A stretch of 64,000 bases of DNA from an uncultured Algibacter sp. (lineage in GTDB: Bacteria > Bacteroidota > Bacteroidia > Flavobacteriales > Flavobacteriaceae), in the NCBI GenBank assembly GCA_937958265.1, contig CALGNX010000005.1:1-64000 (forward strand), given 5' to 3'. Each line of letters begins with the position of its first letter. Positions within the stretch are counted from its first letter, which is position 1. Positions 6,804-55,110 of the stretch are shown here, piece after piece. Both the position numbers and the translations under genes were made by a program. The notes below the pieces were generated by a model. That model searched no databases. It was not told where the DNA came from and saw nothing but the letters and a program-made list of their open reading frames with translations.

Positions 6804-7466
6804 CTATTTAGCACCATGCCATTCGGCATAAAACTGGTCCAAATAATCTTGCATGTAAGCATGTCGTTTATTTGCAAGATTTTTGCCTGTTTTGGTATTC
6901 ATAGTATTTTTTAATAGCAGTAACTTTTCGTAAAAGTGGTTTATTGTTGGTGCAGTAGAATTTTTGTATTCTTCCTTAGACATATTAAGATTTGGTTTTA
7001 TTTCAGGATCATATAGCCCCCTATTCTTAAACCCTCCATAATTAAAACAGCGTGCTATACCAACGGCTCCTATGGCATCTAACCTATCGGCATCTTGTAT
7101 AATATCTAATTCAGCAGAAGTAAATTTATTACCTGTGGTATTGGATAAACTGGTTTTAAACGAAATGTTTTCAATTATGAGTATAACTTGCCTAATAACC
7201 GAAGGTTCAACGTTTAATTTAATTAAAAACTCCCGTGCTATTTTAGGACCAATATTTTCATCGCCATTATAAAACTTACTATCTGCGATATCATGAAGTA
7301 ACGCACCTAGTTTAACAATAAACAAATTACAAGGTTCCGATTTTGCTATTAGTAGACTATTTCTGTAAACACGCTCAACATGAAACCAATCGTGACCTCC
7401 CTCCGCCTGGGCTAATGTTTTCTTTACAAAAACTTCAGTTTTATTTATAACATCCTGAGAATTCAT
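6804..7466 (-). CDS. HD-domain metal-dependent phosphohydrolase
   Basis: 220 residues of the HD superfamily, YedJ-like. Metal ligands are visible as H25/H29 (GGHDWFHVERV), H58-D59 (LLHDIAD) and D125 (IIQDADRLDAIGAVGIARCF). The family hydrolyses phosphomonoesters or nucleotides and is cytoplasmic; the true substrate is not predictable. It is a single-gene unit on the minus strand, convergent with the AraC gene. The length is normal and all HD ligands are present, so it should be active. Confidence 0.85.
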   Translation of the reverse strand: MNSQDVINKTEVFVKKTLAQAEGGHDWFHVERVYRNSLLIAKSEPCNLFIVKLGALLHDIADSKFYNGDENIGPKIAREFLIKLNVEPSVIRQVILIIENISFKTSLSNTTGNKFTSAELDIIQDADRLDAIGAVGIARCFNYGGFKNRGLYDPEIKPNLNMSKEEYKNSTAPTINHFYEKLLLLKNTMNTKTGKNLANKRHAYMQDYLDQFYAEWHGAK

Positions 7467-7616
7467 ATATTTTAAATTACTTACAAAGCTCCACCAAATT
7501 TAGCTTTAGTAGCTCAAATAAATTATAGAAATATTATATTTCTATAAGTACAAACACATGTCTTAAAACAAAAGCCTTCCGCCTTAAATTACGTTTAGAA
7601 CCTTCTAAAATAGTTT

Positions 7617-50377: not shown

Positions 50378-50464
50378 GCGCTACCACAAGGGTCGGGCTT
50401 TACGTTACAAGTCCGCGCACCTCCAAAAGTCGGGCTGTGGGCTTTTCTCTACAATCCCTAGCGC
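50378..50464 (-). repeat. Dispersed structured repeat, copy 4 (cassette B, compensated ends)
   Basis: 87 bp on the minus strand. It starts GCGCTAGGGATTG and ends GGTAGCGC, whereas the other copies have GCGTTA and TAACGC. One base has changed at each end so that the pairing is restored (T-A to C-G). The interior matches copy 3, with short insertions and deletions. It lies in the 369-base divergent gap between trhO and recA. Confidence 0.88.
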
Positions 50465-50672
50465 AAAAACATGTACCAACCCATTAACTAGAATTAAACA
50501 TAAAGCCAACTTAGTTAAGGGGTTAACACTGTAAAACATAAATAATTAAAAACAAGCTTCATTTATTTCAACATATAATAAGTTTATCCTTTTTATTGTT
50601 GAAAATTATTATTGTAGCCCGAGAAAAGATATAGTATTTTAGCATATATTTTCACAGAAAAAATAAAAAAAA

Positions 50673-51689
50673 ATGAGCACCGACAAAGAGAAAGAATCAA
50701 AACTAAAAGCATTACAACTCACCTTAGATAAACTAGACAAAGCTTACGGAAAAGGAACCGTAATGAAAATGAGCGATTCTGCCATAGTAGATGTAGAATC
50801 CATACCATCAGGCTCCTTAGGGCTAGATATTGCTTTGGGCGTTGGTGGTTATCCGCGCGGTCGTGTTATTGAAATTTATGGACCAGAGTCCTCTGGTAAA
50901 ACAACCTTAACATTACACGCCATTGCAGAAGCACAAAAAACAGGAGGTATAGCAGCATTTATTGATGCCGAACATGCCTTCGATCGTTTTTATGCTGAAA
51001 AGCTAGGTGTTGATATTGATAATTTAATTATCTCGCAACCCGATAATGGCGAGCAAGCCTTAGAAATTGCCGATAACTTAATCCGCTCTGGCGCTATTGA
51101 TATTGTTGTTGTAGATTCCGTTGCTGCCTTAACTCCAAAAAGTGAAATTGAAGGCGAAATGGGCGACTCAAAAATGGGACTTCATGCGCGACTTATGTCT
51201 CAGGCACTAAGAAAACTTACCGCCTCCATAAGTAAAACAAACTGTACCGTTATTTTTATTAACCAATTACGTGAAAAAATTGGCGTTATGTTTGGCAACC
51301 CAGAAACAACAACAGGTGGTAATGCACTAAAATTTTACGCCTCTGTACGTTTAGATATAAGACGATCCACACAAATAAAAGGTACAGACGGTAATGTAAT
51401 GGGTAATAAAACCCGTGTTAAAGTGGTAAAAAATAAAGTAGCACCACCTTTTAGATTAGCCGAATTCGATATTATGTATGGCGAAGGCGTTTCTAAAGTA
51501 GGTGAAATTTTAGATTTAGCAGTAGAGCACGAAATTGTAAAGAAAAGCGGATCATGGTTTAGTTACGACGAAACTAAACTAGGGCAAGGCCGAGATGCTG
51601 TAAAAGTAATTATTAAAGATAATCCAGAACTTATGGACGAGCTTGATGGCAAAGTAAGAGCCATAGTAGCCGAACAGCAACAACAGTAA
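50673..51689 (+). CDS. recA: Recombinase A
   Basis: 338 residues, intact. It has Walker A GPESSGKT at 70-77, [18 protein letters not shown] (Walker B), the L2 loop [22 protein letters not shown] and [18 protein letters not shown]. It catalyses strand exchange and SOS induction. A rho-independent terminator follows. No intein and no RecX neighbour. The upstream gap carries a dispersed repeat and shows no obvious SOS box that I can identify in Bacteroidota. Confidence 0.98.
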
Positions 51690-51743: not shown

Positions 51744-52026
51744 GCTTAACCTCATCCTTTACTTTCCTCAGCCAGCAATATTAAGTTTTCACAAACTCCA
51801 AACACCCAAAAACTAAGCTACTTTTTTAATATATCTTCAAAAATAACAAGCCATAAATTACTTAAAACAAAACCCTACGCAACCTTTATATAATTATTGC
51901 ATCTTACTTAAAAACACGATCCCAAAATAAAGAACAACAAAAGCCAACACACGTATTAAACTAATAAACAACAACTTAATAAAATATTAAGCACACTAAA
52001 TTATTACATCCCTCAATTAATTTATT

Positions 52027-52443
52027 ATGAAAAAGATACTATTTCTTTGTTTAACTCTTGTAATTTTCTCATCTTGTAGTATAAATAAAGACAACACAAC
52101 TTTTAGTGTTGAAATTTTAGCAGTTGAAAGCGTAGATATTCCTGATACTTTTGAATTGGGCGAAACCTACCCTATTACTGTTTCCTATTTACGACCAACG
52201 ACATGCCATTCATTTAAAGAATTCTATTATTTAAAAGAAAATAATGAACGTACTGTAGCACCAATAAATTATGTCTTTGAAGACGACACGTGCGAAAACA
52301 CGCAAAATAACACCTTAACAGAATCTACTTTTAACTTTAAAGTTACTAGTAATGGATCTTATATTTTTAAATTTTGGCAAGGTAAAGGCACAGACGGCGA
52401 ATCGCAATTTTTAGTTATTGAAGTACCAGTTATTCAACTATAA
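52027..52443 (+). CDS. Small lipoprotein upstream of the sigma factor
   Basis: 138 residues with signal peptide and lipobox (LVIFSSC, lipidated C18), then a beta-rich mature domain (FELGETYPITVSYLRPTTCHSFKEFYYLKEN, GSYIFKFWQGKGTDGESQF) that resembles an Ig-like fold. The two cysteines at about 60 and 89 could form a disulfide. No family assigned. It lies 27 bases before the ECF sigma gene and may belong to that operon, perhaps as a signal or target of the envelope stress system. Confidence 0.7.
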   Translation: MKKILFLCLTLVIFSSCSINKDNTTFSVEILAVESVDIPDTFELGETYPITVSYLRPTTCHSFKEFYYLKENNERTVAPINYVFEDDTCENTQNNTLTESTFNFKVTSNGSYIFKFWQGKGTDGESQFLVIEVPVIQL

Positions 52444-52470: not shown

Positions 52471-53013
52471 TTGAGTTTAGAAAAACTTATTAAAAACTGC
52501 AAAGCTAATAACACTAAGGCACAGGGTGAGTTATACCAACTCTACTCAAATAAATTATTTGCTATTTGTTTAAAATATTCACGTAATTATGCCGAAGCAC
52601 AAGATAATTTACAAGACGCATTTTTAATTATTTTTAAAAAAATAAATCAATACGAAAATAAAGGTTCTTTTGAGGGTTGGATAAAACGCATAACCATAAA
52701 CAACATATTACAACGCTACCGAAAAGATAAAGTTTTTGACATTATAAATGAAAACACTGCAAAAGACATTGAGATTGAAGTAGATGAAGACACTGTTTCT
52801 ATTGATTTTCTTTTAAAAATCATACAAGAATTACCAAATAGATACCGATTAGTTTTTAATCTTTACGTTTTAGATGGCTACTCTCATAAACAAATAGCGA
52901 AGCTTTTAGATATAAACATAGGTACATCAAAATCGAACTTAGCAAGAGCTAGACAAATTTTAAAACGAACTATAGACCAGCATAATACAACACAACGTTC
53001 TCAATCTTTATAA
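52471..53013 (+). CDS. ECF-family RNA polymerase sigma factor (TTG start)
   Basis: 180 residues. The only available start in the right place is the TTG at 52471, 27 bases after the lipoprotein stop. Sigma region 2 (about 22-90; LYSNKLFAICLKYSRNYAEAQDNLQDAFLIIFKKINQYENKGSFEGWIKRITINNILQ) includes the typical A-E-A-Q-D-N-L-Q-D-A-F. Region 4 (about 120-170; LPNRYRLVFNLYVLDGYSHKQIAKLLDINIGTSKSNLARAR) is complete. It is followed with no gap by the anti-sigma/barrel gene, which is the likely inhibitor. Confidence 0.92.
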   Translation: MSLEKLIKNCKANNTKAQGELYQLYSNKLFAICLKYSRNYAEAQDNLQDAFLIIFKKINQYENKGSFEGWIKRITINNILQRYRKDKVFDIINENTAKDIEIEVDEDTVSIDFLLKIIQELPNRYRLVFNLYVLDGYSHKQIAKLLDINIGTSKSNLARARQILKRTIDQHNTTQRSQSL

Positions 53014-54525
53014 ATGAGCGATAAAAAACACATAGACCGATTATTCCAAGAAGGCCTCAAAGACTTTGAGGCTAAACCTAGCGATGACGTTTGGAAAAAC
53101 ATTAAAGCCAACTTAGATAACGATAACAAAAAACGTCGCTTTATTCCAATTTGGTGGCGCTATGCAGGTGTAGCAGCCTTGCTACTACTTTTCTTAACGC
53201 TTAGCGGTTCCATTTTCAATAATAGCTCCAAACAATCACAACCACAAGTTGTTGACACTAAACACACTGTACCGGAAACCAAAAACCAACTAAACACCAC
53301 TAAAGCAGCAACTCATAAAAATATTGGCGAACCGAATAATAATAATAATAATAGTGTACAAGATAATTTAAACCACGTAAAAAGTAAAACACTATTAAAT
53401 AAACAACCACTCACTATAGCCAAGACAATAACGAACACTAGTGCAATTAAAAGCACGAATCAAAATAATATGCCTGCTGTTAGTATAAACAAAAATTCAA
53501 CCTTTAAAACCAGCGGGGCTAAACCTCACACTAATAATACAATTGCAAACCTAAAATCTAAGGTAATACACTACGGTATAAAACTAAAAAACATTATAGA
53601 TAAAAAAAGTACTAACCCATATAACGGTAAAAATAACGCATTAATAGCCTATTCAAATACTGAGGAAAAACTAAACACACCAGAAACTAATACAAGCGCA
53701 CTAGAATCTTCACAAAAAGAAATTACTGCCACTAGCAAAACAGACAAAAAAAATAAAAACGCTATAGAAGATGCTATATTAGCATCTAAAGAAGCACTTG
53801 TTGAGCAAGAAAACAAAAACAACAGATGGCAAGTTAAACCAAATATTGCACCTGTTTATTTTAACTCTGCAGGTAACGGTTCTTCCATAGATCCGCAATT
53901 TAATAACAATAACATTTCGGGTGATATTAATATGAGTATTGGTATCTCCACAAGTTATGCCATTACTAAAAAAGTTACCATTCGCTCTGGACTTAACAAT
54001 GTTAATTTAGGATACAATATTAACGATGTAACCCTTTTTGAAACTATTGGTAGAAGCTCGAACAGTAGCGCTTTAAAAAATGTAAATACTAACTCAGATA
54101 GAATATCTATAGTAAGCTCCACTAATTTAGGCACAAATGCAGTACCGGGTATAGTAACGACAAATGCATCCATTAATCAAAATTTAAGATTTATTGAGCT
54201 ACCAGTAGAAATTCAATATGCACTTTCAAACAAAAAACTTGGCGTAAATCTTATTGGTGGCTTTAGCTCTTTCTTTTTAAATTCGAGCAAAGTGTTTTAC
54301 GAAGAAACCAATGGGAGCAGAACTATTTTAGGAAAAGCTAACAACTTAAACAATTTAAGTTATAGTGCTAATTTCGGACTCGGTTTAGATTATAAGATAT
54401 CTAAAAGATTAAATTTAAATTTAGAGCCTATATTTAAATATCAATTTAACACCTTTAATAACACCTTTGGTAATTTCACACCTTTTTTTATTGGCGTATA
54501 CACAGGAGTATCTGTAAAGTTTTAA
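53014..54525 (+). CDS. Anti-sigma protein fused to an outer-membrane barrel (dual-membrane architecture)
   Basis: 503 residues. Residues 1-40 (DRLFQEGLKDFEAKPSDDVWKNI...) form a short cytoplasmic anti-sigma-like segment ending in basic KKRR. One membrane helix spans about 49-65 (YAGVAALLLLFLTLSG). A low-complexity linker of about 200 residues, rich in N, T, S and K, follows. From about 270 the C-terminal region is beta rich (NRWQVKPNIAPVYFNS...), shaped like the 8-stranded OmpA/PorT-type barrel and ending in F. The predicted topology runs from cytoplasm to outer membrane in one chain. It starts immediately after the sigma gene stop. This is the layout described for dual-membrane-spanning anti-sigma (Dma) proteins in Bacteroides. 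Confidence 0.8.
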   Translation: MSDKKHIDRLFQEGLKDFEAKPSDDVWKNIKANLDNDNKKRRFIPIWWRYAGVAALLLLFLTLSGSIFNNSSKQSQPQVVDTKHTVPETKNQLNTTKAATHKNIGEPNNNNNNSVQDNLNHVKSKTLLNKQPLTIAKTITNTSAIKSTNQNNMPAVSINKNSTFKTSGAKPHTNNTIANLKSKVIHYGIKLKNIIDKKSTNPYNGKNNALIAYSNTEEKLNTPETNTSALESSQKEITATSKTDKKNKNAIEDAILASKEALVEQENKNNRWQVKPNIAPVYFNSAGNGSSIDPQFNNNNISGDINMSIGISTSYAITKKVTIRSGLNNVNLGYNINDVTLFETIGRSSNSSALKNVNTNSDRISIVSSTNLGTNAVPGIVTTNASINQNLRFIELPVEIQYALSNKKLGVNLIGGFSSFFLNSSKVFYEETNGSRTILGKANNLNNLSYSANFGLGLDYKISKRLNLNLEPIFKYQFNTFNNTFGNFTPFFIGVYTGVSVKF

Positions 54526-54564: not shown

Positions 54565-55110
54565 TTATATACCAAATATTTTAGCATCTATAAAAAACTC
54601 TGAAGCAATCTCAATTGTATATTCAGACTCAATTGTCTTATCAACAGAAACAGTGCCATTTACCGTATAACTATCCTTATTTATATATTCTCTCAACTCA
54701 GCTTCACTAACAACCATTGATACACTTTTCAATCCGTTTTCAGGAATATCGCTAACACTAGCAAGTAATATACGGTCTTTACCCTCAACATCAATAAACA
54801 ACTCAACCTTATTTAAAAAATCAAAACTACCATTATCTGGCGAATTTAAAATTAAAGTCATTTTGGTAAGCTTCGCACTTTCTATAAGGTCTTTTCTTGA
54901 ATTGTTATTTTCAAACTGTTCATTTAAATTAACTTCAATATTTGGAGTTGGCAAGGTAAGTGGCGCATCCAAAATAAGTGTTGTAGCAGGAACAACAACT
55001 TCACTTGAATCTTTTACCGTAAACTGAGTAAACTTATCCAATTCATCTTCACAAGACGAAACAGCAATTAATAAAAACATTAAAAAAGATAATTGAGAAA
55101 TTTTTTTCAT
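54565..55110 (-). CDS. Lipoprotein of unknown function
   Basis: 181 residues with lipobox SSC at about 19 (LLIAVSSC) followed at once by acidic residues EDELD, as in lipoproteins exported to the surface in Bacteroidota. The mature part is beta-rich (an Ig-like sandwich, LDAPLTLPTPNIEVNLNEQF, FSM..VSEAELREYI). No family recognised. Convergent with the sigma/anti-sigma operon, so probably independent of it. Confidence 0.7.
   Translation of the reverse strand: MKKISQLSFLMFLLIAVSSCEDELDKFTQFTVKDSSEVVVPATTLILDAPLTLPTPNIEVNLNEQFENNNSRKDLIESAKLTKMTLILNSPDNGSFDFLNKVELFIDVEGKDRILLASVSDIPENGLKSVSMVVSEAELREYINKDSYTVNGTVSVDKTIESEYTIEIASEFFIDAKIFGI

Follow-up and report, generated by a model that had tools for sequence, protein, structure and literature searches.

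The window, by which we mean the whole 64,000-nucleotide stretch of DNA from an uncultured Algibacter sp. analysed here, carries downstream of recA an operon of three genes in the order lipoprotein, ECF sigma factor and Dma-type anti-sigma factor, all of them on the plus strand. The features are the following (parts of the Dma protein are given by residue as well):

50673-51689, plus strand: recA, named from its sequence
51878-51904, plus strand: predicted ECF-type promoter of the operon, CGCAACC-N14-GCATCT, present in exactly this form
52027-52443, plus strand: first gene of the operon, coding for a small lipoprotein of 138 aa (lipobox-type N-terminus recognised by eye; beta sandwich predicted by AlphaFold2)
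52471-53013, plus strand: ECF sigma gene, 180 aa, TTG start (Pfam Sigma70_r2 and Sigma70_r4_2)
53014-54525, plus strand: Dma-type anti-sigma gene, 503 aa (open reading frame, AlphaFold2 model, fold match and profile homology)
53014-53148, plus strand: Dma residues 1-45, predicted cytoplasmic anti-sigma segment (conservation and profile homology)
53149-53217, plus strand: Dma residues 46-68, predicted inner-membrane helix (model and hydropathy)
53218-53763, plus strand: Dma residues 69-250, disordered periplasmic tether (low pLDDT, variable sequence)
53764-53811, plus strand: Dma residues 251-266, short helix directly before the barrel (AlphaFold2)
53815-54522, plus strand: Dma residues 268-503, predicted 8-stranded outer-membrane barrel (AlphaFold2 and fold match; PF13505 in relatives)

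An initial annotation of this DNA had described a sigma gene with a TTG start abutting a 503-residue protein, and the open reading frames lie in just this way, that of Dma beginning one base past the sigma stop codon. The sigma protein matches Sigma70_r2 (2e-14) and Sigma70_r4_2 (6e-16) in Pfam. Among the best 80 of 278 named matches, which include Algibacter, Flaviramulus, Tamlana and Winogradskyella, the sigma and Dma genes are found in all 80 and the lipoprotein gene in 79, with order and strand conserved; recA precedes them in the same orientation in 80/80, the spacing from sigma stop to Dma start stays between -4 and +3 nt in every one (80/80), and the sigma gene begins with TTG in 74 and GTG in 6. 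In a further 30 loci, recA is present in 30/30 and the lipoprotein gene in 28/30. The lipoprotein gene has been lost in at least three relatives (L048, L014 and L017) in which the sigma-Dma pair remains.

Downstream of Dma, a PlsC-like acyltransferase gene is usually found in the 30 relatives read, in most of them directly after Dma, unlike in the window, where a 181-aa lipoprotein-like ORF (54565-55110, minus strand) separates the two genes. On the other side of the operon, the gap between recA and trhO holds a weak match to the Rfam RNA Flavo-1 (50387-50469, minus strand; 32 bits, gathering score 42), for which the relative L036 has a full match at 7398-7490 (61.5 bits).

Predicted architecture of the Dma protein

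The window's 503-aa protein has no credible match in Pfam or NCBIfam; of 16 aligned relatives, 13 match OMP_b-brl (PF13505) when E values up to 1 are admitted, the best being 5e-9. Its AlphaFold2 model, made from 78 sequences (mean pLDDT 63.6, pTM 0.49), begins with two helices of moderate confidence (residues 5-14 and 24-35, pLDDT 58-77) and a single helix at 46-68 (highest hydropathy windows at 43-52), followed by a long stretch with pLDDT below 50 (residues 70-249), a helix at 251-266 and, between residues 272 and 501, a region of eight long strands in which most 10-residue blocks have pLDDT 83-96 and loops 72-76. The predicted 8-stranded barrel is OmpA/OmpW-like, its fold matching the structures of NspA, OmpW and OmpA (VIA Z about 15-16; 3.3 A over 153 residues for 1p4t). 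The inner-membrane helix and C-terminal outer-membrane barrel proposed in the initial annotation, which had named AlphaFold as the way to check them, are thus both in the model, and a two-membrane topology is predicted. The proposed cytoplasmic segment and disordered periplasmic stretch are there as well, at other lengths than first given (about 45 residues rather than 40, and about 180 rather than about 200). What had been pictured as a one-chain relay corresponds to a single 503-aa ORF with, by prediction, an N-terminal anti-sigma-type part, helix, tether and barrel.

In an alignment of 78 relatives (77 of the 80 loci together with the window), mean pairwise identity is 75% in the cytoplasmic part (residues 1-48), 64% in the helix and 63% in the barrel, and falls to 22% in the linker (residues 70-269), which is 160 to 245 residues long. 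The C-terminal residue is Phe in 78/78, and the cysteine count of Dma in this alignment is zero. As modelled, one chain probably reaches from the surface of the cell across the outer and inner membranes and keeps the sigma factor in check.

Family placement, split forms and the leading lipoprotein

Of 149 genomes sampled from the family, 126 have a Dma homologue (E up to 0.001), the window's genome holding a single copy even at E up to 1; across the class, 188 of 395 genomes match the N-terminal profile. NigD_C (PF17415) was found in 27 of these 395 genomes and is absent from the window's genome at E up to 0.001. A related sigma gene lies no more than 250 bp away at 9 of the 20 best NigD_C places (and at 0 of the next 18), and what follows is a Dma-type protein of 409-441 aa at six of these nine loci and a 172-182-aa protein at three; OMP barrel domains were found in all 5 scanned of the six Dma-type proteins. 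When the flavobacterial proteins were compared with these six by profile, the N-terminal part gave Prob 98.0 (55 columns, score 66.6) and the barrel Prob 96.6 (133 columns, score 69.8), far above the top scores of 18.6 and 21.6, respectively, in 40 column-shuffled controls each. This homology at both ends places the protein in the Dma/Reo family, so that the Dma kinship suggested at the outset holds on sequence comparison; beside Dma1 and Dma2 of Bacteroides thetaiotaomicron it is set by description only.

The sigma factor leads to the same group of loci. In a midpoint-rooted tree that included 8 other ECF sigmas from the window's genome, the adjacent sigma clusters with nigD-linked sigmas, apart from these eight (support 98/97); 10 places in all in this genome score above the region-4 family cut-off.

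In FecI-FecR-FecA signalling, an outer-membrane signal is relayed through an inner-membrane protein to an ECF sigma factor by means of a TonB-dependent receptor and a separate anti-sigma factor, whereas here a small barrel is fused to the anti-sigma factor. Closer counterparts are the Dma1-Das1 and Dma2-Das2 pairs of B. thetaiotaomicron, which, as described in excerpts of PMC13088901, share the anti-sigma N-terminus, helix, long disordered tether, C-terminal barrel and adjacent ECF sigma; the same excerpts give Dma2 this four-part build with a neighbouring ECF21 sigma and speak of a family of Bacteroidota. The present operon differs from theirs in lying downstream of recA and in being led by a lipoprotein that is not detectably NigD-related. 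Vesicle formation is a reported output of theirs; for the present system, a promoter and a predicted regulon are described. The expectation that a flavobacterial member would extend the Dma system is therefore only partly borne out: the member is there, but the Dma2 paper, in its excerpts (PMC13088901), already takes the family to be one of Bacteroidota. As a Dma protein it belongs to a known family that is common in Flavobacteriaceae (126/149). New here, and beyond the initial annotation, are the leading lipoprotein with the recA position, the fixed promoter together with the regulon predicted from it, and the split version.

The EcfO-Reo pairs of Phocaeicola vulgatus and Bacteroides fragilis likewise have a two-membrane anti-sigma factor beside an ECF sigma, according to excerpts of PMC9308784 and PMC13114119. 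These excerpts describe a system that spans both membranes and is induced by toxins (PMC9308784) and in the mouse gut (PMC13114119). Between them, they tie the pair to oxygen stress as well as to exposure to toxins, and they list surface lipoproteins (NigD) in its regulon, to which the lipoprotein regulon predicted here may be compared. In P. vulgatus, the locus tags of nigD, ecfO and reo are consecutive (excerpts of PMC13114119); the present genome differs in having no NigD_C match. Elsewhere in that genome (G000 contig 2 near 141047; L157:2019-3566), the genes behind another ECF sigma code for a 168-aa protein and then for a 147-aa exported protein that by eye resembles Spy, much as in cirY-cirZ-spy of P. 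vulgatus as given in the excerpts of PMC13114119.

The fused build is not the only one. Forty regions were fetched from the listed short and long anti-sigma matches of the class search, and 30 genes for short anti-sigma factors (at most 330 aa) from other lineages and paralogues were examined. In 27 of the 30, the gene is followed on the same strand and within 250 nt by a gene for a 265-440-aa protein with a signal-peptide-like start; the three exceptions are a contig end, a locus without such a gene and one with a 720-aa receptor-like gene. Of 20 downstream proteins scanned, 16 match OMP_b-brl_2 (PF13568) with E no higher than 4e-5, two of the 16 falling under the curated cut-off, and 4 do not match it. 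These loci resemble the present one in their related sigma, related N-terminal segment, adjacent barrel gene and, at several loci, related promoter, and differ from it in that barrel and anti-sigma are two proteins there and fused here. That the two parts are either fused or encoded by neighbouring genes argues, at the level of sequence, that barrel and anti-sigma function jointly. It also shows that covalent linkage is not needed everywhere, as expected if the fused chain were translated whole and then cut in the periplasm to leave an ordinary outer-membrane protein and an ordinary anti-sigma factor. The unconserved tether sequence would fit such a cut too, but the fused form, with its tether of 160 residues or more, has been retained in 78/78 aligned relatives, and we regard routine cleavage as improbable, preferring a chain that stays joined until the switch is thrown. 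Two further Dma-type proteins of the class (L142, L148) carry the N-terminal anti-sigma segment as a tandem duplicate.

The leading lipoprotein is predicted to be a compact beta sandwich (AlphaFold2, mean pLDDT 87). Its place beside a Dma-linked sigma (79/80 loci) is that of nigD at some Bacteroidales-type loci. At six Dma-type loci in other families, nigD is a direct neighbour of the sigma gene, oriented either with it or divergently; the likeness is one of position, not of homology. A relationship to NigD had been suggested by eye and by a first profile comparison (Prob 63). The alignment behind that comparison still had the signal peptide in it, which proved to be the sole part that aligns with full-length NigD. 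With mature domains (62 of the 79 lipoproteins and that of the window), Prob is 0.1, inside the range of column-shuffled controls; NigD alignments of the short and the long kind detect each other at Prob 97. No Pfam match to NigD_N or NigD_C (PF12667, PF17415) was found in 18 lipoprotein relatives at E up to 5. The B. fragilis lipoprotein 3nqi ranks second by fold (Z 5.9), level with complement and macroglobulin domains, and is not listed when the NigD profile is run against solved structures at E up to 0.01. NigD structures are not among the 50 fold matches listed for the leading lipoprotein, which excludes nothing.

Could this lipoprotein be a sensor part, binding the barrel at the surface and setting the threshold of the switch? 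Its near-constant presence in the operon (79 of the best 80 of 278 named relatives), its compact fold and the nigD genes at the six corresponding loci are all compatible with such a role, but the relatives that keep the sigma-Dma pair without it, and the fact that it could equally be another target of the regulon, make a sensor unlikely.

The promoter motif and the predicted regulon

The first box with its spacer, CGCAACC-N14, occurs between recA and the sigma gene in 80/80 relatives (best 80 of 278), followed by a second box within one base of GCATCT (GCATCT in 68, ACATCT in 6, GTATCT in 4 and TCATCT in 2). With a matrix made from these operon sites, TGCAACC-type sites with a spacer one base longer were found to precede the sigma genes in 11 of 14 other loci of the class, each being the top of 100 shuffles (of two-base blocks, a crude control). 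The 11 include both fused and split forms, some are close kin, and two (L147, L150) have a weak second box. The matrix search gave no convincing motif at the six nigD-linked Dma-type loci and no site before the 3 sigma genes divergent from nigD. Among nine sigma-linked nigD genes, only two (L196, L198) ranked top against 100 shuffles, and at each of these the anti-sigma that follows is short and of a different type; a common promoter at nigD genes was rejected. Nor do we equate the motif with the SM6 promoters of Flavobacterium psychrophilum, a selection that contains YceA and an ECF/anti-sigma pair, as excerpts of PMC9723704 state their -10 box as CGT. Among the results listed by searches of open-access literature, no title or abstract opening dealt with the promoter or with the 28-aa peptide described below.

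Since the window's genome has further ECF sigmas, one of these could be the reader of CGCAACC-N14-GCATCT, with the operon and the lipoprotein genes as its targets and a different regulon for the Dma-linked sigma. We give this little credence, given the motif before the operon in 80/80 of the best 80 of 278 relatives, the related motif before sigma genes at 11/14 other loci of the class, and the fact that ECF sigmas usually regulate themselves; reading by the Dma-linked sigma is preferred.

A scan of 16 genomes that tolerated at most one mismatch yielded 137 sites for the pattern, compared with 5 for its reversal. The 137 comprise 21 repeat copies in one genome (G125), 16 operon sites, 15 opposite-strand sites about 1.1-1.3 kb off on the recA side, and 85 further sites. 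All 85 were fetched and recounted, including 16 one-mismatch sites that look unlike the motif, along with 3 of the 15 recA-divergent sites and 3 of the 21 repeat copies. Lipoprotein genes follow 41 of the 85 (39 recognised by regular expression and 2, L278 and L297, by eye), a single-helix peptide of 25-28 residues follows 14, other ORFs follow 5, and about 25 precede neither lipoprotein, peptide nor other ORF. The lipoprotein start lies 14-31 nt behind the second box in 34 of 38 cases (first count). By regular expression, 39 of 46 ORFs near the sites are lipoproteins, as against 112 of 1249 background ORFs (p 4e-34), with size floors of at least 60 aa for the former and at least 100 aa for the latter. 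The acidic residues past the lipobox resemble the surface-export signal of Bacteroidota lipoproteins and may correspond to it.

The peptide of the window's genome, 28 residues long and unannotated, reads MNFILIISILLIINAILLIFSVNKKTEP (G000 contig 8, 9431-9514; L259:332-415). Its relatives, found among L264-L322, have 25-28 residues and lie directly behind the motif in 14/16 genomes, with one site per genome (13 found by script, the 14th being a variant in G125) and two copies of the peptide in G044. In a search beyond the nearest genera, 26 of the 149 genomes of the family had the peptide at E up to 1e-7, and each of the 26 also has a Dma match; at E up to 0.01 the number is 72/149, the weaker matches being largely other frames and left uncounted. 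The credible sites of the window's genome are those before the operon, before the peptide and before a 167-aa lipoprotein gene on contig 1, a fourth falling inside a coding frame. The motif thus predicts a regulon of small lipoproteins and a tiny membrane peptide.

A proposed model of the switch and its outputs

Taken together, we consider it likely that this operon encodes a flavobacterial switch of the Dma/Reo type, the sigma factor of which reads the CGCAACC-N14-GCATCT regulon; sigma binding, the signal, cleavage and promoter reading by the Dma-linked sigma are the steps that we infer. Dma residues 1 to about 45 would hold the sigma factor at the inner membrane, with the barrel inserted in the outer membrane and the disordered tether of about 180 residues joining it to the inner-membrane end. 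Disturbance of the outer membrane, or failure of the barrel to insert, would free the sigma factor, most likely by cleavage of the tether or helix, a proteolysis suggested by what other anti-sigma factors do. The freed sigma would then read the motif before its own operon, many small lipoprotein genes and the gene of the 28-residue membrane peptide, and fresh Dma made off the same mRNA would reset the switch. The signal and the release step are the weakest links of this mechanism. One may speculate that the tether senses how far apart the two membranes are, in keeping with a link to blebbing.

The initial annotation proposed the formation of outer-membrane vesicles as what the switch controls. 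According to excerpts of PMC13088901, deletion of Dma1 or Dma2 raises the vesicle yield of B. thetaiotaomicron, in the case of Dma1 via the lipoprotein NigD1, and a predicted regulon rich in small lipoproteins could be read in the same way. Against this, a search of the present genome at E up to 0.001 gave no NigD_C, no relationship of the leading lipoprotein to NigD was detected, and vesicle formation is one among several outputs reported for such pairs (excerpts of PMC9308784 and PMC13114119). Vesicles as the main output therefore seem rather doubtful to us. On a wider scale, we tentatively suggest, at somewhat less than even chances, a surface-to-cytoplasm switch found throughout the class in one-chain (Dma) and two-chain builds under one promoter grammar, the regulon of which in Flavobacteriaceae consists of small surface lipoproteins and an unannotated 28-residue membrane peptide that might act back on the inner-membrane step.

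If the main reading is true, the promoter sequence offers a way to read a poorly understood signalling family from a genome: one could list its targets, build reporters and screen for the inducing signal. The covalent link between barrel and anti-sigma would be one version of a two-protein relay, and a stress pathway of gut Bacteroides would be tied to common marine flavobacteria. Follow-up is worthwhile for the sake of the promoter with its predicted regulon, and also of the split form.

In 79 of 80 relatives (L031-L110), a second copy of the motif lies upstream of recA on the other strand and faces trhO; it is absent from this place in the window. It precedes a short region of variable length that in many loci ends in a terminator-like hairpin and a run of T, and in which a 30-aa ORF ending in KADGG is found in 9 of 78 loci. 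This region may encode a small RNA.
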